Part shown: positions 697-54,408 of the stretch, one piece after another
How the letters are laid out: each line of letters opens with the position of its first letter
Numbering within the stretch: position 1 is the first letter of the stretch
Assembly (NCBI GenBank): GCA_947649125.1
Contig: CANSQL010000010.1
Location: 1-57,365, forward strand
Length of the DNA: 57,365 nucleotides
Source: an uncultured Erysipelotrichaceae bacterium
GTDB lineage: Bacteria > Bacillota_I > Bacilli_A > Erysipelotrichales > Erysipelotrichaceae
Direction: 5' to 3'
The notes under the pieces: model-generated
Seen by the model: the letters and a program-made list of their open reading frames with translations, nothing else
What the model was told of the DNA's origin: nothing
Databases searched by the model: none
Translations under genes and position numbers: made by a program

Positions 697-3600
697 TTAA
701 GCCTGTTTATTTTGTTTCTTATGATCCATATGTTTTTTAATACAATAAGCATCAACTAAAATTGTCAGTATAAACAATAAGAACCACATTATCAGGTTTG
801 TATAATCTCCCGTATTTACACGATTCATTAAATCTGAATCATTTCCGGATAAATTATAACGATTTCCACTGTTATCAACAATGTTTTTATCAGCTTTACC
901 GTCACCGTCTGTATCAATGTTATACTTAGGCTTTAGATTGGTCATTGTATCATATGCAAAGCCGTTCACCGTAAAGTTTGATTCAGGCTTCCATTCTTTA
1001 ATTCTCACAAGATTCAAATCCGCAACACCGTCACCGTCTACATCGACATTGATATCAGGCTTGCCGTCTCCATCGGTATCGATATTTACATCGGGAATTC
1101 TATCGCCGTCTACATCAATATTCAAATCAGGTAAGCGATCGCCGTCAATATCAAGATTTAAGTCAGGACGTCCGTCACCATCTGTATCGATATTAATGGT
1201 AGGCTTTAGATTACCCATTGTACAATAATGAACCTTTTTCACCGTTACACATTTATTCGGCTTCCATGGCTTAGGTAATGTTCCCATATTGATATCAGCT
1301 TCACCGTCTCCGTCTGTATCAACATTATAATCAGGTTTGCCGTCTCCGTTTGTATCGATATTAAGATCAGGAATACCGTCACAATCCGTATCAATATTAA
1401 TATCAGGTTTGCCGTCACCGTCTATATCAATGTTGATATCGGGATTTCCGTCTTTATCTGTATCAATATTTGTTTCAAGGTCATCAACTGAACATTGTCC
1501 TTTATTCGGCTTTTTATTACCGTTAGGATCATATTCCGTGCCGTCAGGCAACACTACCGTACCATCAGGTAATATGATTGCGCCATTCGGTGTATCGATT
1601 TCGGTTCCATTAGGGAATTCCACCTTACCGCCGTCAGGTACTTCAACGCTACCGTCAGGCTTTTTCTCAGGCTGTTTGCCGTCCTCATTAGGTAAACCAC
1701 ATACCTCATCACCGGTAGTCGGCTTACCGTCAGGTCCTACGACACAAGTATCATCTTTATTGAGTTCTTGTTTATCATTACTGATTGCGTATCGTAATAA
1801 TTCATCGGTGATAAAGGTTACGAAGCTTCCTTCTAATTGTACCTTGAGTTCTTTTACCTTATCCTTTGTATCAATTTCATAAACGATTGGCTTAGCATCA
1901 CTTTTCGCTCCGCCCATCGCATCACCCAGAGCTTCCTGTGGCTCTGTATACGGCAAGTATACCTTGATACTTCCGTCAGGCTGTATTTTTACGTTGCCTT
2001 TTTGAAGCCATACATCATATACGGTAATCGGTTCTCTTGGGAGTGGGGGAATATCATCCGCATTATCGGTAATATCATCGACAATTAATACCACGCTTGG
2101 ATCAAAATCTGTATCGCCTTGTCCTTCTACCTTAGCGCTCTTATCATCTGTTTCTACAACCTTTTTCCTTAAGCTGTTCCACTTGTCTAACGCATCCTTG
2201 ATCCAGTCCTCGATATCTTTCTTTTCCGTTTCATCAATCTTGTCCTTGATTTCATCTAATTCATCAATCACTTGATCGATGATATCCTTAGATTCATCAC
2301 TGCCGTCAATCTCTGTTTCAATATCAGGCAACGATACTATTTTAAATGTGATCGTAATATCATTTCCTGCATTATCCTCAGCGTAGATTTCATATTCACC
2401 GACACTGCTGATTTCCTCATCGATGTTATCTTGAATTGTTCCTGCCATAGCTCCGTCAAGCTTATATTCGCTGTACGATAAACCACTGTAATCATCGGTG
2501 ACCTTTACAAATCTCGGTAAGTAATAGAATTTATATTCACTCTTATCCTTTACACCGGTTATTTTCGGTGCTTTGCGATCGATCATGATTCCTTCACCGC
2601 TGCTTAATGCACTGCAGTTGCCTGCCTTATCGCATGCCTTTGCCTGTAACGTAAGCTCTACATCATCGCGATATGTGACGACTCCGCTTGTGCTTTGTTT
2701 TGTGTTTGTGCCGCTCTTACTTGTTTCCGTGTATTCATAGTAATCAAGTCCGCTTGTCGCATCACTGCTTGTCATAGTAACTTCTGCCGCTTGATTCATC
2801 CAGTTACCGAAGCTTAACGCATTGATGAATCTTGCGAATACACTTTTATTGATTTGTTTCATCGTCATGGTCGGTACATCAGGCGGTGTTTGATCGATTC
2901 GTACTTGATATCGGATTGCCTTGGCAACTAAGCCTGTGCTTGAATTTCTTAAGTAGAAGTCAGTCGGATAATCGCCATCAGTCGAATAAACTAACGGGCT
3001 AGTCTGGAAATTAATTCCATCATTACTGATTTCATCATAACCATTCTTACCTGTAGCTGATATCTCAACATCACTGATATACCAGTTATTCTTTCCTTTG
3101 GTTCCTGTTACCTTATAATAGCCTTCACCGTTATTCGGAAGTGCGTTACTGTTGATTATTAATGTTCCCTCTTGATATTCAAACTCATAATTTGGATTGG
3201 ATAAGCCGCTTGCCTGTATACCGTCTGTATATTTTCCTGCCGCTTGATTATCAGGATATTTACTTGTGATAGTAAGTGTTCCTAAGTTATCACCCGCAAC
3301 AGGCTGTGGATTATAAGTAACTCCGTTATCTTTAAATGCCTGACCTACTGTTTTCGTTACATCCTTTGGTTTTACGATCGTCTTACGTTTGTTTACTGTA
3401 ATGACCTTAGTCGCTGTAGATTCCTGATAGCTGCTTGTGCCGGCCTTCGTTACTTTTATTGTGAATGTACCTACACCTGTAACCGTAACCTTACCGTTAC
3501 TTAACGCAGCTCCTGTACCGTTATCATTTTCAATCGTCCAAGACACTGCCCCGCTACCTTGTCCGCCGCTGTAGGAAGGAGTATAGGTCTCACCATACAT

Positions 3601-6096
3601 AATTGAATCCTTACTTGTGATTGAAACAGGTGGGTTCTGAGTCGGTAATTGTGATACCGTTATCTGTTTCGTAACTGTTTTACTGTTGTAGTTAGTATTG
3701 CCCGCAACTGTAGCTTGAAGGGTAAAGGTTCCCGCACTTAACAGCTTGAATTTATTTCCGACAATCTGCGCTACACTGTTGCCGTTCGTAATCGTAAACG
3801 TTTCATTTTCACCGCTGTCATTCCCTGTAGTAGTGATATTGATTTCTTGATTCACTTGTAGGGAATAATTTGCGCTGTTTGTGATTTGATAATTGTCTTG
3901 ATTCTTTTTATCTACTGTTATAGAAACTGTTTTAGTAAAGTCAACACCGTTTCCATCCTTACCTGAGACAGTAACACTATAGGTTCCCGCATCTAAATCA
4001 GCACCTTTCACTTTAAGATTTCCGCTCGTATCAATACTGAAATGTGATTCATCTCCGCTTGTGCCTAATTGAATAGATGCAATATTAGAGGTAGGCTCTC
4101 CCTGCGGGTATTTTAACGTAAAGGTACCGATCGTATTGTTTACCTTCGTCGGATTATCCCCATACGTAAAAGTCGAACTTGTCGGATTAAATTCGAGTGT
4201 AGGTACAGGATGTCCTACTACCGTTATTGTAATCGTTTTGGTAAAGGTTTCATTCTCATTATCCGTTACTTTTATCTTTAATGTATAGGTTCCTTTAGTT
4301 ATCTTTTTCTTAGCGAATAATTCATTATTTGTGATACTGAAATTCGCATCTGTAGTAGGATTTCCCGAAGCATCAACGATTTCCCATTTCTTATAATCCT
4401 TACCGCTTGTAGGATCATTCACACCGCTTGTGCCGCCGGTAAAGGTAAAGGTTCCTGTTTTAGCACCTGCCGCATTGATACCTGCATCTCCCTCAGTCCA
4501 GCTTGTTTTCCCGCTTGGATAGTTTGGAGTAAATGTAATATCGGTAATTGGCAGAGCACCTAAATCTAAGGTAATCTGTGTACCGTTTCCTCTATAAGTC
4601 GTTTTCGTTCCTTCATCTACTTCTTGATAAAGAGTAAGACTTAAGGTTTTCGCTGTTTGATAGTTTGCGAGTGAAGTTAAATCTAAATCAACAGTACCTT
4701 TAGTCCCATTTACTTGTCCCAGTACGCTATATTTATCACCGTTATTTGTTTTCGCAACAACACTGACATAACGAGTGCCTGAAGTAGTGCCGCTTAGAGT
4801 GACCGGGATTGAAAGAGTTGTATCACTTCTGTTAACCGTTAATGTATTACCTGAAACATCAGGATTACTTGAATCTAACCCAATTCCTAAATCAGAGTCA
4901 TTTAGAGTAAGATAAGAATAATTTCCATCAATTTCAGGAACAGGTTGATTCACGCTTGAATTAGTTTGAAATGATGGCTTTGTCACACTTGAATAAGCAA
5001 GCTGACTTTTATCTAAAGTAAGAAGCGGTCTTACCGATGAAGTACCTGCAGTTTGCGCATGACCGGGGCAAGTGGTAGTTTCAACTTTCTCAGATACATC
5101 AACTATTTGCACAGTGTATACTCCTTGAGGATTATTGTTATATAAATAGCTTTTGACCATCTCAGTTGATCCCTCATACTTATAAGGAAACGGTGTATCT
5201 AAGTTATGACATACACCATGAGTAGGTCTGTATACAAATTCTTTATCATAGCCTTGTGAGGGATCGGCAAGATAATCCCTGATATAGTCCTCTAAACCTA
5301 ACTCTTTAAACGTATTATATATCGGAAATACTATGGGTGGCAATTCGTGTTCAGACACTGCATTCTCTATATCCAAGGTTTCAGCATTAAGTTGCAGTGT
5401 GTAAGTAGTTCCTATAGGTAGATCAATAGAAGGAGGTAATCGACCAGTACAATTTGATTCTCTGAAAGATCTTACTCTACCTTTGCCATACTCTTGTATT
5501 GTAAAATATTTTCCTTTGGAAACATTCTCAACCTTATCATCTGCATCATTTCCATCAATGGTCGGCTTAATTCCCTGTTCTGTTACTGTCTGATCCATAT
5601 TACATACTTTAGCAGCTTCATCCAACACATTCTTAATTATACTGACCTCAGTAACCAAAGAATTCGTATTCGCCCCCACAAACTTACTTCTGTTATCTAC
5701 TGAATCATCTCCTAACCACCAATCGGTATTTATCGAATCAATATTAATTAATGCTGTATTATCATTATTAGTAATTAAAGTTAAATCGGATGTTTTCGGT
5801 AAAGTGAATTTATTTGAAACAGCTTTACTTCCTAATTCTCCGTACTTATTTGCTAAAGTGCTTAAAGAAGCTACTGCATTATTCCAAGTAACTTCACCTG
5901 CATCTGTAGCTGTATCCTTTAATAAAGTCATTGTATTAGGATCAATTACAGTATAAGAGTCATTTCCGATAAATACTTTACTTCCTGTTGAATAGTTAGT
6001 AGCCGCATTTAATCTATAATCATCATTATATAATAACGGTATACCTATACTGAAAGCTGTAAGTATGCACACAAAAACACATATGAATTTTTTCAT
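697..6096 (-). CDS. Giant multidomain surface protein with Ig-like/MBG domains and Ca-binding-type repeats
   Basis: The protein is about 1799 residues. An N-terminal signal segment (MKKFICVFVCILTAFSIG) is followed by a unique region of roughly 400 residues, then serial Ig/cadherin-like beta domains with motifs such as TFTGGTSG and VTDNENETFTKTITITV. An MBG-type domain lies near residues 900-980 and Ig-like segments with the DQTPPDVP motif follow. Next come an acidic charged stretch and eleven D-x-D-G-D-G-x-P-D repeats resembling thrombospondin type-3/EF-hand calcium loops. It ends with NTGDYTN, one membrane helix (LIMWFLLFILTILV) and a basic tail: a sortase-like layout, but with no LPXTG, so simple membrane anchoring is equally possible. 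The start at 6096 has AAAGGG nine bases upstream; the ATG at 6105 lies too close to it. The likely role is adhesion or matrix binding (inference). The neighbouring sigma factor may control it. Confidence 0.85.
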   Translation of the reverse strand: MKKFICVFVCILTAFSIGIPLLYNDDYRLNAATNYSTGSKVFIGNDSYTVIDPNTMTLLKDTATDAGEVTWNNAVASLSTLANKYGELGSKAVSNKFTLPKTSDLTLITNNDNTALINIDSINTDWWLGDDSVDNRSKFVGANTNSLVTEVSIIKNVLDEAAKVCNMDQTVTEQGIKPTIDGNDADDKVENVSKGKYFTIQEYGKGRVRSFRESNCTGRLPPSIDLPIGTTYTLQLNAETLDIENAVSEHELPPIVFPIYNTFKELGLEDYIRDYLADPSQGYDKEFVYRPTHGVCHNLDTPFPYKYEGSTEMVKSYLYNNNPQGVYTVQIVDVSEKVETTTCPGHAQTAGTSSVRPLLTLDKSQLAYSSVTKPSFQTNSSVNQPVPEIDGNYSYLTLNDSDLGIGLDSSNPDVSGNTLTVNRSDTTLSIPVTLSGTTSGTRYVSVVAKTNNGDKYSVLGQVNGTKGTVDLDLTSLANYQTAKTLSLTLYQEVDEGTKTTYRGNGTQITLDLGALPITDITFTPNYPSGKTSWTEGDAGINAAGAKTGTFTFTGGTSGVNDPTSGKDYKKWEIVDASGNPTTDANFSITNNELFAKKKITKGTYTLKIKVTDNENETFTKTITITVVGHPVPTLEFNPTSSTFTYGDNPTKVNNTIGTFTLKYPQGEPTSNIASIQLGTSGDESHFSIDTSGNLKVKGADLDAGTYSVTVSGKDGNGVDFTKTVSITVDKKNQDNYQITNSANYSLQVNQEINITTTGNDSGENETFTITNGNSVAQIVGNKFKLLSAGTFTLQATVAGNTNYNSKTVTKQITVSQLPTQNPPVSITSKDSIMYGETYTPSYSGGQGSGAVSWTIENDNGTGAALSNGKVTVTGVGTFTIKVTKAGTSSYQESTATKVITVNKRKTIVKPKDVTKTVGQAFKDNGVTYNPQPVAGDNLGTLTITSKYPDNQAAGKYTDGIQASGLSNPNYEFEYQEGTLIINSNALPNNGEGYYKVTGTKGKNNWYISDVEISATGKNGYDEISNDGINFQTSPLVYSTDGDYPTDFYLRNSSTGLVAKAIRYQVRIDQTPPDVPTMTMKQINKSVFARFINALSFGNWMNQAAEVTMTSSDATSGLDYYEYTETSKSGTNTKQSTSGVVTYRDDVELTLQAKACDKAGNCSALSSGEGIMIDRKAPKITGVKDKSEYKFYYLPRFVKVTDDYSGLSYSEYKLDGAMAGTIQDNIDEEISSVGEYEIYAEDNAGNDITITFKIVSLPDIETEIDGSDESKDIIDQVIDELDEIKDKIDETEKKDIEDWIKDALDKWNSLRKKVVETDDKSAKVEGQGDTDFDPSVVLIVDDITDNADDIPPLPREPITVYDVWLQKGNVKIQPDGSIKVYLPYTEPQEALGDAMGGAKSDAKPIVYEIDTKDKVKELKVQLEGSFVTFITDELLRYAISNDKQELNKDDTCVVGPDGKPTTGDEVCGLPNEDGKQPEKKPDGSVEVPDGGKVEFPNGTEIDTPNGAIILPDGTVVLPDGTEYDPNGNKKPNKGQCSVDDLETNIDTDKDGNPDINIDIDGDGKPDINIDTDCDGIPDLNIDTNGDGKPDYNVDTDGDGEADINMGTLPKPWKPNKCVTVKKVHYCTMGNLKPTINIDTDGDGRPDLNLDIDGDRLPDLNIDVDGDRIPDVNIDTDGDGKPDINVDVDGDGVADLNLVRIKEWKPESNFTVNGFAYDTMTNLKPKYNIDTDGDGKADKNIVDNSGNRYNLSGNDSDLMNRVNTGDYTNLIMWFLLFILTILVDAYCIKKHMDHKKQNKQA
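886..1476 (-). repeat. 36-bp coding tandem repeats (12-residue calcium-loop-like units)
   Basis: In-frame units of 36 bases encode N-[IVL]-D-x-D-G-D-G-x-[PA]-D-x. Reading the protein from N to C there are five consecutive units, a linker of about 30 residues containing KPWKPNK...TMGNLKP, five more units, a second linker containing KEWKPES...TMTNLKP, and one last unit. The two linkers are related, so the larger block of five units plus linker has itself been duplicated. Acidic residues sit where calcium would be bound in type-3 or dockerin-like loops. Confidence 0.9.
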
Positions 6097-6315
6097 TTGA
6101 AACATCCCTTTCTATAGTTACTCCTACTCATTGGTACCATGAAAATGAATATCGGTTCAAAATTTGTTTACTAAATTTTTATAAATAATAAAAAAGAGCT
6201 TATTTAAAATAAAAGTAATAGTAAAATAATAATGAATCTATGTATACGAGTATAACATAACATTTTTAAATAATCATTATGTAAATATTGGTAAAAATAT
6301 AAAAAAAAGAAGTGA
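6097..6315. other. AT-rich intergenic region upstream of the surface-protein gene
   Basis: This stretch between the sigma-factor stop and the surface-protein start is very AT-rich. It contains the surface-protein ribosome site (AAAGGG on the minus strand, within 6106-6113). I see no clear sigma-A promoter, which would fit transcription by the neighbouring ECF factor, but no ECF promoter can be named from one example. Confidence 0.4.
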
Positions 6316-14065: not shown

Positions 14066-14070
14066 ATTAA

Positions 14071-14158
14071 CAGTTATATGACTGACGGAAAATGACATAT
14101 GTCATCAGTGGAATCAACCACGGGAAGTATAATGAATAAGAGCCGACCGTCTGGGTAG
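14071..14158 (+). promoter_or_regulatory. ZTP (pfl motif) riboswitch
   Basis: The conserved pieces of the pfl/ZTP RNA appear in order: ATATGACTGACGGAA, the GTGG/CCAC hairpin (14108-14111 with 14118-14121) continuing into CCACGGGAAG, and the 3' element GCCGACCGTCTGGGTAG. TTATAT (14074-14079) pairs with GTATAA (14128-14133) to form P1. A self-complementary 14-base arm at 14092-14105 sits between the P1 side and P2. The known ligand is ZTP/ZMP (AICAR), which signals 10-formyl-tetrahydrofolate shortage. Control of pyruvate formate-lyase, a formate source, is consistent with that role. Confidence 0.88.
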
Positions 14159-14189
14159 TTTTCCAGATTTTCGACTCTTTTCTTTATTT
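14140..14189 (+). terminator. Riboswitch-coupled intrinsic terminator
   Basis: 14140-14154 (GAGCCGACCGTCTGG) pairs with 14163-14177 (CCAGATTTTCGACTC), with a few mismatches, and is followed by TTTTCTTTATTT. The 5' arm is the conserved 3' half of the ZTP aptamer, so ligand binding and terminator formation compete. The expected outcome is read-through when ZTP is high. Confidence 0.8.
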
Positions 14190-25636: not shown

Positions 25637-25668
25637 AAGCTGATCGCTGATGAACAATCAGCTTTTTT
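25637..25668 (+). terminator. Terminator after the GDT1 gene
   Basis: AAGCTGAT (25637-25644) pairs with ATCAGCTT (25657-25664), followed by a T-run. Confidence 0.9.
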
Positions 25669-25727
25669 ATTACTTGCATCAGCCGCCGTTTTTTGATACC
25701 ATTATGCGAAAGAGAGGAAGTGCAGCT

Positions 25728-26516
25728 ATGCGATGTGATTATCATGTACATTCAGCCTTCAGTGACGACAGTGTATATCCGATGGAAGAAGTTGTAAAAA
25801 AGGCCGTTTCACTCGGCTTAGATGAAATTTGTTTTTGTGAACATACCGACTTTGGGATGAAGCCGAGTCAAATTTGCGATTATCCGGCCTTTTTCGCTGA
25901 AATCAAGCGCTGTCAAGAGCTGTATCAACATCAGCTTACGATAAAAGCCGGTGCTGAATTCGGTATGCAGGTTCATACGATTCCCGAATTTGAAAAGGTC
26001 TATCATTCCCATACCTTTGATTTTGTCCTCTTATCATGTCATCAGGTAGATAATAAGGAATTTTGGAATCAGGATTTTCAAAGCGGTAAAACACAGGAAC
26101 AATATAATGATGCGTATTATGAGGAAATCTATCAGGTCATGAAGCGTTATCACAACTACAGCGTACTTGCACACCTGGATGCCATTAAGCGTGACGATCG
26201 CTGCGGTATTTATCCGTTTGCGAAATCCAAGCATCAGATTGAAAAGATTCTGCGCTTGGCGATTCAGGAACAAAAGGGTATTGAAGTGAATACCTCAAGC
26301 TTTCGCTACGGCCTATCCGATCTTACTCCGTGTCGTGAGATTTTAGCACTGTATTATGAGCTTGGCGGTCGTATCATTACCCTTGGCTCCGATTCGCATA
26401 AGGAGGAGCATTTAGCGGCGCATTTCGATGAAGTCATTGCCGCATTGAAGTCCATCGGTTATCGCGAATATTGTACCTTTGATCAAATGCGTCCGACCTT
26501 TCATCCGCTTCCTTAA
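25728..26516 (+). CDS. PHP-domain phosphatase, histidinol-phosphatase (HisJ/HisK) type
   Basis: The protein has 262 residues and begins MRCDYHVHSAFSDDS, the first PHP metal motif (HxHx9-D). Further motifs are CEHTDFG, the AGAEFGMQ glutamate, SCHQVD, AHLDAIKR and LGSDSHKEEH. These match the PHP-type histidinol phosphatases, trinuclear metal enzymes. There is no his operon nearby, so another phosphoester substrate is possible. The start at 25728 is preceded by AGAGGAAG; the longer frame from 25650 begins inside the upstream terminator and is rejected. Confidence 0.87.
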   Translation: MRCDYHVHSAFSDDSVYPMEEVVKKAVSLGLDEICFCEHTDFGMKPSQICDYPAFFAEIKRCQELYQHQLTIKAGAEFGMQVHTIPEFEKVYHSHTFDFVLLSCHQVDNKEFWNQDFQSGKTQEQYNDAYYEEIYQVMKRYHNYSVLAHLDAIKRDDRCGIYPFAKSKHQIEKILRLAIQEQKGIEVNTSSFRYGLSDLTPCREILALYYELGGRIITLGSDSHKEEHLAAHFDEVIAALKSIGYREYCTFDQMRPTFHPLP

Positions 26517-26524
26517 CAGCTTAG

Positions 26525-26754
26525 TTTTCCACAGACTGTGGAAAACTTTTATTATCCACAATGTCATTTTCTCTATCAGCGTGTCTAACCCCTTTATTTA
26601 AGCCGTTTTTCAACATTTCAGCCTTAGTTATCCACAAAATGTGGATAACTTTATACAATTATTGGGGAAAACTCAAGCTTTCGTATCACTGAAATTATAC
26701 AAAAAAACCTCGAATTCGAGGCATTTTTACAATTATTTTACTTGTTTTTCCACA
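26525..26754. promoter_or_regulatory. DnaA-box cluster between convergent genes
   Basis: Perfect DnaA boxes TTATCCACA occur at 26552-26560 and 26628-26636, with a third inverted at 26640-26648 (TGTGGATAA). The close variant TTTTCCACA is at 26525-26533, inverted at 26537-26545, and again at 26746-26754 in the 3' end of the permease gene. Two of the pairs form hairpins; the first, with TTTT after it, may also terminate the PHP gene. There is no dnaA, dnaN or AT-rich unwinding region, so this is not oriC. A DnaA-titrating or regulatory cluster like those known in Bacillus is the favoured reading (inference). Confidence 0.6.
26700..26729. terminator. Bidirectional terminator at the end of the AI-2E-type permease gene
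   Basis: CCTCGAATTCGAGG is self-complementary and is flanked by A7 on one side and CATTTTT on the other. On the minus strand it follows the permease stop directly. Confidence 0.85.
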
Positions 26755-27908
26755 TTTGATAATTCATAAAAGTCTTGGAAACTCATATCCTTTCGCTTCA
26801 GCCGATACGCAAAAAATTCCTTTAACAGCGTATAAATGACAGCGAACAACGGAACACCGATAAACATACCGATAATACCGAAAATACCGCCGCCGACACA
26901 TACCGCAAACAGAATCCAAAGGCTCGGCAGACCTAGCTTATCCCCGAGAATCAGCGGACCTAAAATATTACCGTCAAACTGCTGCAGCAGCAGGATAAAG
27001 ATTGCGAAGTAAACCGCGTCGATCGGGTGAATCAGCAGCAACAGGAATATACCGGGCACCGCACCGATAAAGGGACCGAACACCGGTATCATATTCGTAA
27101 CACCGACAATGACCGCCAACAACAGCGCATAAGGCAGCTGCAGAATACTCATACCGATATAGCACAGAATACCGATAATACAGGAATCGATTGCCTTACC
27201 GATAATAAAGTTATTAAAGATTGCGGCTGAGGTTTCACTGATATGCAGCAGATATCCTGCCGTATCATTCGGGAAAATCGCATACACGGCGATTCGTAGG
27301 TGCCTGCATAGCTTTTCCTTATCCATCATCATATACAATGCCGACATGATTCCCAATACGAGATTCAACAGCATATTCATAAAGCTGTAGGACATGCGTG
27401 CCATCTGCGGCAATGCATCACTTACAAACTCAGTCAAGCGATTAAAGATATCACGATCACCGAAAAATTTCTGAATCTCTTCAGCATCGATATTATTTTC
27501 GGCAATGACTTCATCAAGAAAGACTTGGAAATCCTTGACATATTTCGGAAAGGAATCTACAAGTGAAACGACACTGCTGACTAATTGAGGAATCAACAGG
27601 CAGAAAAATAAAGTAACGGCACCGATTCCGATAATCAATGCACTGATTGCCGCAATCGTTCGTTTATGTCCCTGTTTGATATTCCAGTTTTTAAGCAGCT
27701 TTGTTTCAATCAGCATCATCGGTTTATTCAAGATAAAAGCAATTCCAAAGCCTAAAATAAACGGTGATAATAAAGATATTAAATGAGAGACAAAGCCTTT
27801 TAAGGCTTCCATATTATAGAATGAGAAAAAGATGAGAATTGTGATAACTGCTACACTGACATATGTAACAATCTTTTTTTTCATTCCGTCATCAAAATGA
27901 AGTTTCAA
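26733..27908 (-). CDS. AI-2E/PerM family transporter
   Basis: The polytopic membrane protein (about 391 residues) has the family layout: two N-terminal helices, a central soluble stretch (EEIQKFFGDRDIFNRLTEF), then the characteristic C-terminal block NMIPVFGPFIGAVPG...LQQFDGNILGPLILGDKLGL. Members have been linked to export of AI-2 or to Na+/H+ antiport; the substrate cannot be told from sequence. I chose a TTG start at 27908 because AGGAGG lies eight bases upstream of it, whereas the in-frame ATG at 27941 has no ribosome site. Confidence 0.88.
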   Translation of the reverse strand: MKLHFDDGMKKKIVTYVSVAVITILIFFSFYNMEALKGFVSHLISLLSPFILGFGIAFILNKPMMLIETKLLKNWNIKQGHKRTIAAISALIIGIGAVTLFFCLLIPQLVSSVVSLVDSFPKYVKDFQVFLDEVIAENNIDAEEIQKFFGDRDIFNRLTEFVSDALPQMARMSYSFMNMLLNLVLGIMSALYMMMDKEKLCRHLRIAVYAIFPNDTAGYLLHISETSAAIFNNFIIGKAIDSCIIGILCYIGMSILQLPYALLLAVIVGVTNMIPVFGPFIGAVPGIFLLLLIHPIDAVYFAIFILLLQQFDGNILGPLILGDKLGLPSLWILFAVCVGGGIFGIIGMFIGVPLFAVIYTLLKEFFAYRLKRKDMSFQDFYELSNVEKQVK

Positions 27909-27968
27909 AGCACTTACCTCCTGTTCCCAATATTTTACCATGACTTGATACGAAAGAACAAGGAAATC

Positions 27969-50430: not shown

Positions 50431-50607
50431 CTGTGGTGTAATAGCGCCTCTTCACAGGGAAGGAGTGTCACAGGTGTTTCCGTGTGACCCCAAGCAGAAA
50501 CAATGCCTTATTACTGCTTTCGGCGATGATTACCTTTCCCTGCTTTCACAGCCTGCCGGCTCCCACAGTTACTCTGATACATCGCTGCCTCTATTCAACT
50601 TTTGTAT
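50431..50607 (-). promoter_or_regulatory. Lysine riboswitch (L box)
   Basis: Reading the minus strand, the L-box conserved blocks appear in order: AGAGGCAGCGATG, AGTAACTGTGGGAGCC, CTGTGAAAGCAGGGAAAGG, ATCGCCGAAAGC, then TGCTTGGGGTCAC and closing GAAGAGGCGCTATT. The AATAG/CTATT ends form P1. Lysine binding is known to favour the downstream terminator, so the transporter would be made when lysine is scarce. I considered a T-box and rejected it because no specifier loop or T-box core is present. Confidence 0.92.
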
Positions 50608-50762: not shown

Positions 50763-50984
50763 ATGGACTACTACAATATTATCACACCTTCTTCAAAATT
50801 TAAACATCTTTCTTTTGAACATTGTGAATATATCATTCGTGAAATTACCAAACACGATGCTTTCCATCACGGAACAAGAGGAATACAGGCAGAACTGTTT
50901 TTCCTTATGGAATTGAGTGTATTTTTTTATATGAGCTTTGACCTATCTGTCACAGCCCCTTTTCTTATCATGATTATCACTTAA
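50763..50984 (+). pseudogene. Possible transposase N-terminal fragment
   Basis: After AGAAAGGATACATTTCT an ATG opens MDYYNIITPSSKFKHLSFEH, followed by CEYIIREITKHDAFHHGTRG. The HLSFE opening resembles the start of IS30-type transposases, but only about 40 residues look conserved. The remainder (ELFFLMELSVFFYMSF) is a hydrophobic run into the 3' end of the convergent surface-protein gene. No catalytic residues remain. I read it as a decayed insertion-sequence end, with low certainty; an unrelated small gene cannot be excluded. Confidence 0.35.
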
Positions 50985-53900
50985 TCATTTTATTGTTTTT
51001 ATAACGTTTTCCTAATAAAACAGTTAAAACTCCAAATGATCCAACAAACATAAAGACAAACGCTCCTAAATTTGCCATATCTCCGGTTTTTGGTGTATCT
51101 GTCACATCTGGCTTTGTTGTATCGCCCGGTTTTGTTGTATTGTCTGGTTTATCTGGCGTACTTGGTTCTGTTGGTTTTTCAGGCTGTCCCGGTTCCGTCG
51201 GAATTTCAGGTTCTTTTTCCACTTCCCACACAACATTCTTTCCTTCTGCTTCATTGTAATGTTCTAAATCAGTTGGGGTAAATGTCCATGAATAAGCTGT
51301 TCCCTGACTTACTTGTACATCCGGAGTATTCCATGTAAATTCTCCTTCTACCTCTATGCCTGCAGCATTGACCATTTTTCCTTTTAAAATTACACTTGAA
51401 AGAATCACTTCACTATCTACCTGATCAAATATCGGTTCTCCTGCCGGTGTTCCCTTGATAATCGCAAAACGACGAGATGCAGATACATAATGGGTATCGC
51501 TTTCTCCATTGATGATCATAGAATATACACCGATTTCTTTTGGAGCTATCGCCAGGATTGCTTCTTGTGTTAATTGATCAGCTGTTCCTCTCAGATGCCC
51601 TTCATAATTCGGAGTTCCCTCTGATACAGAATGGAAATGTATAGTAAATACTTCCACTTGATTATCTTTGGCAGATAAGCTTGTTAAACCACCTGTTATT
51701 GGTACAATCGCTTCCCCTGTATAACCAAAATAATCTTTGTCCTCTGTATTTCCTATATCTTTTAATGGTTCTCCGTTTAAATATAAACTACTTGCTTCTT
51801 TATTTCCGTCTAATACATCAACCAATAGTGTTATTGTATTTCCTTCTTGCCAATTTGTGTCAATTGTATAGAATCTGTAGTTTGGATTTTTCAGTCTCAT
51901 TTTCACTTCAATCACATCATCAGATTTAATAATCGGCAATGTATTGGTTGTTACAATTTGACCGGTTGATGATTTATAAATAAATTCAATATCTTCATCC
52001 GAAAGTTTAATTGGAGCATTTTCTATAGGATCATATTTTCCATCACTATTTTTTTCTGCTTGGAACAAATCAAAAACTTCATTGATTTTTGGCGCAAGAC
52101 CATTTTCTAATGAATATGTGATATTTGGCTTTGTATTTCCACTATAAGTGATCGGCATTGGTGTAACTTCTACATTTACAATTAACTCTTCATTGCTTCT
52201 TAACTTTGCATCAGAAACAATCGTCGTTGTTCCGATTCCGACTGCTTTTATTTTTCCATCTTCAATCTTTACAATTTTTTCATCATTCGATTTCCAATTT
52301 TCAAAGCTTACACCTTCTATTTTTATATCATCTAATGATTTTTCTTCACTATAGTTCATAGCTATGTCTTCGCTCTTTAATTCAATCCATTGAGCGTATA
52401 ATGTCATATCCCGATCAAATAGAACATTTGTACCATCAGCATAAGACGTTCCTGTCCCATCTGATTCAGTGTTCCAGCCTTTAAAAATATATCCCTCTTG
52501 TACAAATTTATTTTTCAGTAAATTTGTTTCAATTGTTTTAGGATAATATCTGTTAAAGGAATTACTTGTTCCATCATTTGAATCAAAATTAATTTTCCAG
52601 CCCTCTGTAGATTTAAAAGTATTGCTTATTGAATCTAAATAAATAGCCTTATTCAAATTATTACCGGTCTCTGTCTTATATTGAATTTTCTCAAGATCTG
52701 ATTCTGTCAGAGTATATGATTCATTTCCTTTGACAAGAATTTCTCCATCAGTAATTTGCTTACTAGAAAAAATCCCAATATACCCATCTGTAGTTAATGA
52801 TGAAACAACATTTAATAGCCTACTATCATACAAATCTATGTCAATATCGACACTGTCTGTACCCTCTATTACATTCCCATCACCATCAGCCAAATATACT
52901 TTGTTTCCGAAAATTGCTATATCTCCGCCAATATTTAAAATTGAATCTTTTGTTTCCAGATACACACCAGCCCCGCGATCATATACATTGTTCGTTTTAT
53001 ACATCTTATTATTAGTGATATATCCTCCTAGAAGATTCAGCTTTTTTCCGCCGCCTACTCTTATACCGGCACCCAAAGCACCCACATCAACGTTGTTAGA
53101 AACAGAAACTTTATCTTTAATAGTAAGTTCACCATTTCTAACGTGAATAGCCGAAGAATTTGTGCCTTTATTATTTTCAATCTTGACATTACCGGCAAAC
53201 ACACACTGTCCATCGCATAAAACTGTTGGACCAGCTGTATTGTCGTGAATATTGGCATTGCCATCAATTAATAAAATTCCATTATCTCCAATCCAAATAC
53301 AATTAGTAGTTGATGTCGTTCCCGGACCATTACTATAAATCTCAATATCGCCACCAATATGAGTCTTCGTATTGTTATAAGTAACTATTGCCGTTCCATA
53401 ACTTCCTTTATTATGGTGAATTTTCCCGCCAAGCAAATCAACTGTTTGATTACTGCCATTGGTTGCCATGATAGTACCATAGTGTCCGGTCGAACCAAAA
53501 TTATAACATATTTCTCCTCCATTCATGGTAAATTTAGAATCATTACCTCGAATACCGACAGCATTATTTTGTTCTCTTACATTGTATGAAATTTCTCCTC
53601 CATTCATAGTCATCTCACTATTTTCGTTTACTATAATCGCTAATCCATAACTGTGCGTAATTTTCCCGCCATTCATCACAAAGCGATTGCCTTCTTCCTT
53701 AGTGGAGATAACAGATGACCCATACATATCAGTAATAACTCCACCATTCATAATAAAATTACCGCCAGCACGAATCCCCACACCATTACAGTTATTTTGA
53801 TATGCTGAATAATAATTTGTACGAGCATCTGTAGATGTAGCGTTGTTTTTAAGAACAGTCCCCTCATTCATGATCAACTCTCCACCATTTATATCAATCA

Positions 53901-54408
53901 AAAGTGCTGTTCCGTCTTTTCCTGTCCTTTGTGTAAAATCATATCCAAGAAATTCTGCTAACGGTTTTAATTTTACTGGGTCACCAGTAAATGTAGCTTC
54001 GTTATATTCACCGTAAACAACATCACCATCAAAAGTAACATTTTCCAATCTGAGCTTACTATTTTGGGGAACTTCAATAACAATTCCATAATAATCATTT
54101 GTTCGGCGAATTGTTCCCCCACCAGAAATAGTGACATCCCCTTTGATTGTTATTTGATCATTAATAATAAGTGTTACGCCACTGTTTATTATTAAATTTT
54201 CTGATAGCTCTACTTTATCATTCCATGTTGTATCCTGACTAATTATTTGAGATGCTTTTGCAGATTTGTTTGAAGCACCATCTTCCTCTATCTGATTTTG
54301 AATAACTTCAGTGCCCTGAGCTGAAACTGTTATAGGAAATATATTTAATATTAAACTAAATACCATGAACAGACTAAAGATACTTTTAAAATGTTTTTCC
54401 TTTTTCAT
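50977..54408 (-). CDS. Cell-wall-anchored surface protein with beta-helix and InlB-type repeat
   Basis: The 1143-residue protein has a signal peptide (KSIFSLFMVFSLILNIFPITVSAQ). Next comes a parallel beta-helix of many Gly-Gly repeats (NGGEISYNV, NGGEICYNFG, LGGKIHHNKG) over about residues 60-520. An InlB B-repeat near 615-675 reads INFDSNDGTSNSF...GYIFKGWNTESDGTG...MTLYAQW. Ig-like domains follow, then a Pro/Thr/Lys-rich wall-spanning stretch, and an anchor TPKTGDMANLG plus membrane helix plus KRYKNNK tail. TPKTGD is close to the LPXTG sortase motif, so covalent wall attachment is likely. Beta-helix plus InlB modules suggest host glycan or protein binding. Its base composition is more AT-rich than the neighbours. 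Confidence 0.88.
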   Translation of the reverse strand: MKKEKHFKSIFSLFMVFSLILNIFPITVSAQGTEVIQNQIEEDGASNKSAKASQIISQDTTWNDKVELSENLIINSGVTLIINDQITIKGDVTISGGGTIRRTNDYYGIVIEVPQNSKLRLENVTFDGDVVYGEYNEATFTGDPVKLKPLAEFLGYDFTQRTGKDGTALLIDINGGELIMNEGTVLKNNATSTDARTNYYSAYQNNCNGVGIRAGGNFIMNGGVITDMYGSSVISTKEEGNRFVMNGGKITHSYGLAIIVNENSEMTMNGGEISYNVREQNNAVGIRGNDSKFTMNGGEICYNFGSTGHYGTIMATNGSNQTVDLLGGKIHHNKGSYGTAIVTYNNTKTHIGGDIEIYSNGPGTTSTTNCIWIGDNGILLIDGNANIHDNTAGPTVLCDGQCVFAGNVKIENNKGTNSSAIHVRNGELTIKDKVSVSNNVDVGALGAGIRVGGGKKLNLLGGYITNNKMYKTNNVYDRGAGVYLETKDSILNIGGDIAIFGNKVYLADGDGNVIEGTDSVDIDIDLYDSRLLNVVSSLTTDGYIGIFSSKQITDGEILVKGNESYTLTESDLEKIQYKTETGNNLNKAIYLDSISNTFKSTEGWKINFDSNDGTSNSFNRYYPKTIETNLLKNKFVQEGYIFKGWNTESDGTGTSYADGTNVLFDRDMTLYAQWIELKSEDIAMNYSEEKSLDDIKIEGVSFENWKSNDEKIVKIEDGKIKAVGIGTTTIVSDAKLRSNEELIVNVEVTPMPITYSGNTKPNITYSLENGLAPKINEVFDLFQAEKNSDGKYDPIENAPIKLSDEDIEFIYKSSTGQIVTTNTLPIIKSDDVIEVKMRLKNPNYRFYTIDTNWQEGNTITLLVDVLDGNKEASSLYLNGEPLKDIGNTEDKDYFGYTGEAIVPITGGLTSLSAKDNQVEVFTIHFHSVSEGTPNYEGHLRGTADQLTQEAILAIAPKEIGVYSMIINGESDTHYVSASRRFAIIKGTPAGEPIFDQVDSEVILSSVILKGKMVNAAGIEVEGEFTWNTPDVQVSQGTAYSWTFTPTDLEHYNEAEGKNVVWEVEKEPEIPTEPGQPEKPTEPSTPDKPDNTTKPGDTTKPDVTDTPKTGDMANLGAFVFMFVGSFGVLTVLLGKRYKNNKMIK

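Follow-up and report, generated by a model that had tools for sequence, protein, structure and literature searches.

The closest described counterparts of the locus reported here are groups of DnaA boxes lying outside the replication origin, oriC. In B. subtilis, removal of the six ectopic DnaA-box clusters (DBCs) leads to earlier initiation (PMC5295017; PMC13220808), an effect that has been read in review as sensitivity to free DnaA (PMC13220808). YabA is a negative regulator of DnaA in this organism, whilst whether it also has regulators of the nucleotide state of DnaA is given as unknown (PMC13220808). In E. coli, datA, which carries five DnaA boxes and lies elsewhere on the chromosome than oriC, limits initiation (PMC5295017), and DnaA in vivo favours box pairs 2-3 bp apart, the modelled pairs being tandem (PMC11317965). 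How Gram-positive bacteria limit initiation without the DnaA switch of E. coli is an open question.

The locus lies in the genome of an uncultured Erysipelotrichaceae bacterium (2.41 Mb in 93 contigs; completeness 98.7 %), the closest named relatives of which are isolates filed as Erysipelotrichales bacterium. The window, by which we mean the whole 57,365-nt stretch of DNA analysed, is a complete contig (C10) of this genome. At 26525-26754 we found six perfect DnaA boxes, arranged as two inverted pairs and two single boxes, within the following features:

25650-26516, + strand: PHP-domain protein gene (histidinol-phosphatase-like; PF02811), left convergent neighbour
26525-26545: inverted DnaA-box pair 1, TTTTCCACA-GAC-TGTGGAAAA, inside a palindrome with 11-bp arms (26523-26547)
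26552-26560, + strand: single perfect DnaA box TTATCCACA, 6 bp past pair 1, invariant in four species
26607-26615, + strand: tentative one-mismatch DnaA box TTTTCAACA, invariant in four species
26628-26648: inverted DnaA-box pair 2, TTATCCACA-AAA-TGTGGATAA, inside a palindrome with 11-bp arms (26626-26650)
26663-26671, − strand: tentative one-mismatch DnaA box TTTTCCCCA, invariant in four species
26701-26728: bidirectional intrinsic terminator AAAAAAACCTCGAATTCGAGGCATTTTT, separate from the boxes
26733-27941, − strand: AI-2E family transporter gene (PF01594), right convergent neighbour
26746-26754, + strand: single DnaA box TTTTCCACA in the 3′ end of the AI-2E gene, present in four species

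In order and strand, the perfect boxes run + 26525, − 26537, + 26552, + 26628, − 26640 and + 26746; those at 26525(+), 26537(−) and 26746(+) have the letters TTTTCCACA, and those at 26552(+), 26628(+) and 26640(−) the letters TTATCCACA. The first-pass annotation had described such an array, with six 9-base boxes, three of each sequence, inside 230 bases, and this array was re-found exactly, as were its two inverted pairs with three-base spacers (26525-26545 and 26628-26648). It had also placed the boxes between convergent genes. By the ORF coordinates this holds for the five perfect boxes in the 216-bp intergenic region of the PHP/AI-2E pair, but not for the sixth, which lies within coding sequence at the 3′ end of the AI-2E transporter gene (codons for ..NVEK..). 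As RNA, pairs 1 and 2 each fold into a hairpin with an 11-bp stem (−13.2 and −13.8 kcal/mol, respectively), as expected from the earlier remark that the pairs double as hairpins. The two one-mismatch boxes, at 26607(+) and 26663(−), may add to the cluster. No known RNA family was found over 26525-26754. Elsewhere on the window we observed a lysine riboswitch (50434-50601, −) and a ZMP/ZTP riboswitch (14068-14163, +), as well as two genes for large proteins (1802 aa at 697-6105, −, and 1143 aa at 50977-54408, −) with MBG and Listeria-Bacteroides repeat domains, the products of which are probably surface proteins.

To gauge how readily such an array might arise by chance, we shuffled the 216 bp between the two genes 20,000 times by dinucleotides, and each shuffled sequence contained either no box or one box, never five. 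Genome-wide, TTWTCCACA occurs 112 times in 2.41 Mb; given this number, the chance of finding six boxes in 230 bp anywhere in the genome is ~1e-10, an estimate that presumes independent boxes, which the palindromes are not. The proposal that chance occurrence is very unlikely was thus upheld. Mapping of the boxes relative to oriC showed that close pairs of TTWTCCACA, whether inverted or direct, are found only at oriC and at the cluster locus in seven genomes of the genus, and a search of the source genome found the paired palindrome at the cluster alone. A dispersed repeat or genome-wide terminator, which would have spoken against the first-pass annotation, was rejected on this basis. The absence of a plasmid match to the cluster likewise led us to reject a plasmid-derived origin. 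A phage remnant was also rejected, as the only matches were stretches of 31-41 bp to gut Microviridae with arrays of similar box-containing repeats, a likeness that we judge to be convergence on a box plus AT-rich flank. As an observation in its own right, these Microviridae (gokushoviruses; KT264787.1, 225-320, and MG945529.1, 180-275) carry non-coding tandem repeats with a unit of ~21 bp, AAAATGTGGATAACTTTATAC, containing one perfect DnaA box per unit, and ~25 bp of the repeats are identical to half of pair 2 (window 26634-26658). Such gut gokushoviruses may use or titrate host DnaA; in the literature searched we found no paper naming both gokushovirus and DnaA box.

The cluster had been described as far from any replication-initiation gene, with a position beside oriC named as one outcome that would overturn its interpretation. 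In the source genome, dnaA is on a different contig (C26), in the usual order jag - yidC - dnaA - dnaN, and is flanked on either side by boxes of its own. In a relative with a 1.8-Mb genome (G208), a single 888-kb contig carries both the AI-2E orthologue (98 kb) and dnaA (509 kb), and the GC skew changes sign at ~510 kb. If this position is shared, we estimate that the cluster would lie ~411 kb from oriC, near mid-replichore, a distance taken from a genome that itself lacks the cluster and with which the window shows partial synteny. By the dnaA contig and the layout of G208, a locus beside oriC was therefore rejected, and the cluster, again judged in this relative, lies away from the skew switch near dnaA. 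A complete genome of the family (G012) was not used for positioning: its PHP homologue is 455 kb from dnaA, and no AI-2E neighbour of that homologue was found in the stretch examined.

Three further species of the genus (G002, G005 and G006) keep the full set of six boxes in unchanged order, with spacing equal to within 1 bp. In the four-species alignment none of the 54 box columns varies, compared with 73 of 190 columns elsewhere (Fisher p ~4e-10); the weight of this is limited, as the four genomes fall into two close pairs. The two one-mismatch boxes, which span 18 columns, are invariant too. The spacer letters of pair 1 vary among the four species, and box 6 is kept while the neighbouring C-terminal codons of the AI-2E gene diverge. 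From this comparison we conclude with high confidence that the boxes are under purifying selection. Furthermore, the neighbouring terminator (26701-26728) changes from CCTCGAATTCGAGG to CCTCAAAATTGAGG in G005 and G006, its pairing being kept by compensatory changes; unlike this RNA hairpin, the box palindromes have frozen stem letters, which argues that the boxes are a protein site. A further relative, G003, shares the convergent gene pair, with a terminator, a short gap and none of the boxes, so that either one clade gained the cluster or G003 lost it. A single clade of an Erysipelotrichales genus thus appears to have acquired or retained it.

The alternative that survives best is that the palindromes are transcription terminators of the convergent pair, their likeness to DnaA boxes being incidental or secondary. 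Both fold well as RNA, and pair 1 lies downstream of the PHP gene, 6 bp past its stop codon, with a U-rich tail on the + strand that is present in all four species; possibly, pair 1 also serves as terminator of the PHP-domain gene. We nevertheless regard this explanation as unlikely overall, as the U-tract of pair 2 is gone in G005 and G006, a separate bidirectional terminator is already present at 26701-26728, the source genome has no further copy of the pair serving as a terminator, and the boxes at 26552 and 26746, which stand singly and form no hairpin, are equally conserved. The frozen stems, set beside the compensated hairpin of the neighbouring terminator, weigh in the same direction. 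Additional evidence comes from the palindrome TTWTCCACAnnnTGTGGAWAA in other genomes. We found it in 13 of 195 family genomes and, leaving aside the four that bear the cluster, it lies just upstream of dnaA (oriC) in seven of nine. A draw of 395 genomes from the class gave nine further carriers, with the palindrome at the dnaA origin region in seven (three assigned by a dnaA hit, and four by box layout and a yidC neighbour matching one of these) and elsewhere in two. These last two belong to genera of another family; there the double-box palindrome occupies the gap between purA and a TM1506-family gene, which converge on it, and A/T tracts flank it on both sides:

L217, 1499-1530: purA/TM1506 double-box palindrome
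L218, 1496-1530: purA/TM1506 double-box palindrome

These look like typical bidirectional terminators and speak for a terminator role. The palindrome extends past the boxes by 5-6 bp at purA, by 2 bp at the cluster (3 in one case) and mostly not at all at oriC; since the cluster palindromes reach past their boxes, selection may also act on the hairpin or on an extended site. With the palindrome elsewhere being mostly an oriC element, and with the boxes frozen, DnaA binding is the better reading, and a terminator role of pair 1 besides DnaA binding is possible.

We thus consider it slightly the likelier case that 26525-26754 is an ectopic DnaA-binding cluster of one clade, which sequesters DnaA and restrains initiation. 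The parts of this reading differ in strength: that DnaA is the ligand is inferred with good confidence, and titration with moderate confidence. DnaA would bind two head-to-head double boxes and two single boxes, and perhaps two weaker ones. As the cluster is found between convergent genes, there is no promoter for DnaA to regulate. Replication of the cluster, some time after oriC has fired, would double its DnaA-binding capacity, and the likeliest effect is that DnaA would be sequestered and the next initiation delayed or stabilised, as with the B. subtilis clusters. In addition, YabA (PF06156) was not found in the source genome by a search that, as a control, recovers the protein from both B. 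subtilis and Lactococcus lactis; this brake on DnaA therefore seems to be absent. Sequestration is favoured by the convergent neighbours, the box pairs, the outcome of cluster deletion in B. subtilis and the failure to find YabA. A counterpoint to titration is that the cluster holds six boxes compared with 112 perfect boxes genome-wide.

Other roles for the locus were also considered. In a DARS-like site, head-to-head pairs would help DnaA to exchange its ADP for ATP, and initiation would be stimulated as a result. The paired boxes do converge (+ then −), as boxes I and II do in both DARS1 and DARS2 of E. coli (PMC8682772, PMC5742627). However, the E. coli cores, which we read from the MG1655 sequence, follow the pattern + / 5 bp / − / 3 bp / −, boxes II and III being tandem, and this spacing is absent here: the cluster has + / 3 bp / − / 6 bp / +, the third box facing the other way, as well as + / 3 bp / − standing by itself. 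Moreover, B. subtilis lacks DARS and IHF, according to review (PMC13220808). We therefore think a DARS-like site improbable. Much the same low standing is given to a Gram-positive DnaA-remodelling site, at which the head-to-head double boxes with their fixed 3-bp spacing would alter the nucleotide state of DnaA or release it in a cell-cycle-dependent manner; if true, this would be a functional counterpart of DARS and datA in a lineage in which YabA was not found. An operator of another repressor, with the palindrome AGTTWTCCACAnnnTGTGGAWAACT, would account for both palindromes reaching 2 bp past the boxes, but the convergent genes offer no promoter to control, the source genome holds no other such site and the single boxes are conserved too, making this very unlikely. 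A second or dormant replication origin, for which the palindrome's being mostly an oriC element elsewhere might speak, is hardly credible, given that the most AT-rich 40 bp reach 78 % at the cluster vs 85 % at dnaA-dnaN and that a normal oriC is present at dnaA, where the skew of relative G208 also switches (a crude triplet search for a DnaA-trio run found none at the cluster and none at the real oriC either). For the favoured reading, sequestration of DnaA, the locus, compact and strictly conserved in a genome in which YabA was not detected, offers a clean natural test of titration, as every close box pair outside oriC could be removed by deleting 230 bp.

Set against known systems, the cluster can be compared with four. 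One is a DnaA-box cluster of Streptomyces, a member of another phylum, which according to the title of its report regulates chromosome replication (Smulczyk-Krawczyszyn et al., 2006, via PMC4585315). The datA locus of E. coli spans ~1 kb, is IHF-dependent and promotes hydrolysis of DnaA-bound ATP. DARS1 and DARS2 resemble the cluster in that their boxes converge head-to-head in non-coding DNA distant from oriC; DARS2 requires IHF and Fis. The nearest likeness is to the DBCs of B. subtilis, which are also small groups of boxes outside oriC in a Gram-positive bacterium and are proposed to lower free DnaA. B. subtilis has six such clusters and the source genome has one; moreover, to judge by the title of the original report, those of B. 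subtilis are oriC-proximal (Okumura et al., 2012, via PMC5295017, PMC13220808), whilst ours probably lies mid-replichore. Nevertheless, three features expected of a DBC-type cluster are found at this locus: boxes closer together than chance would bring them, a position outside oriC and, as judged by sequence comparison, retention by selection; binding by DnaA and a lowering of initiation are predicted.
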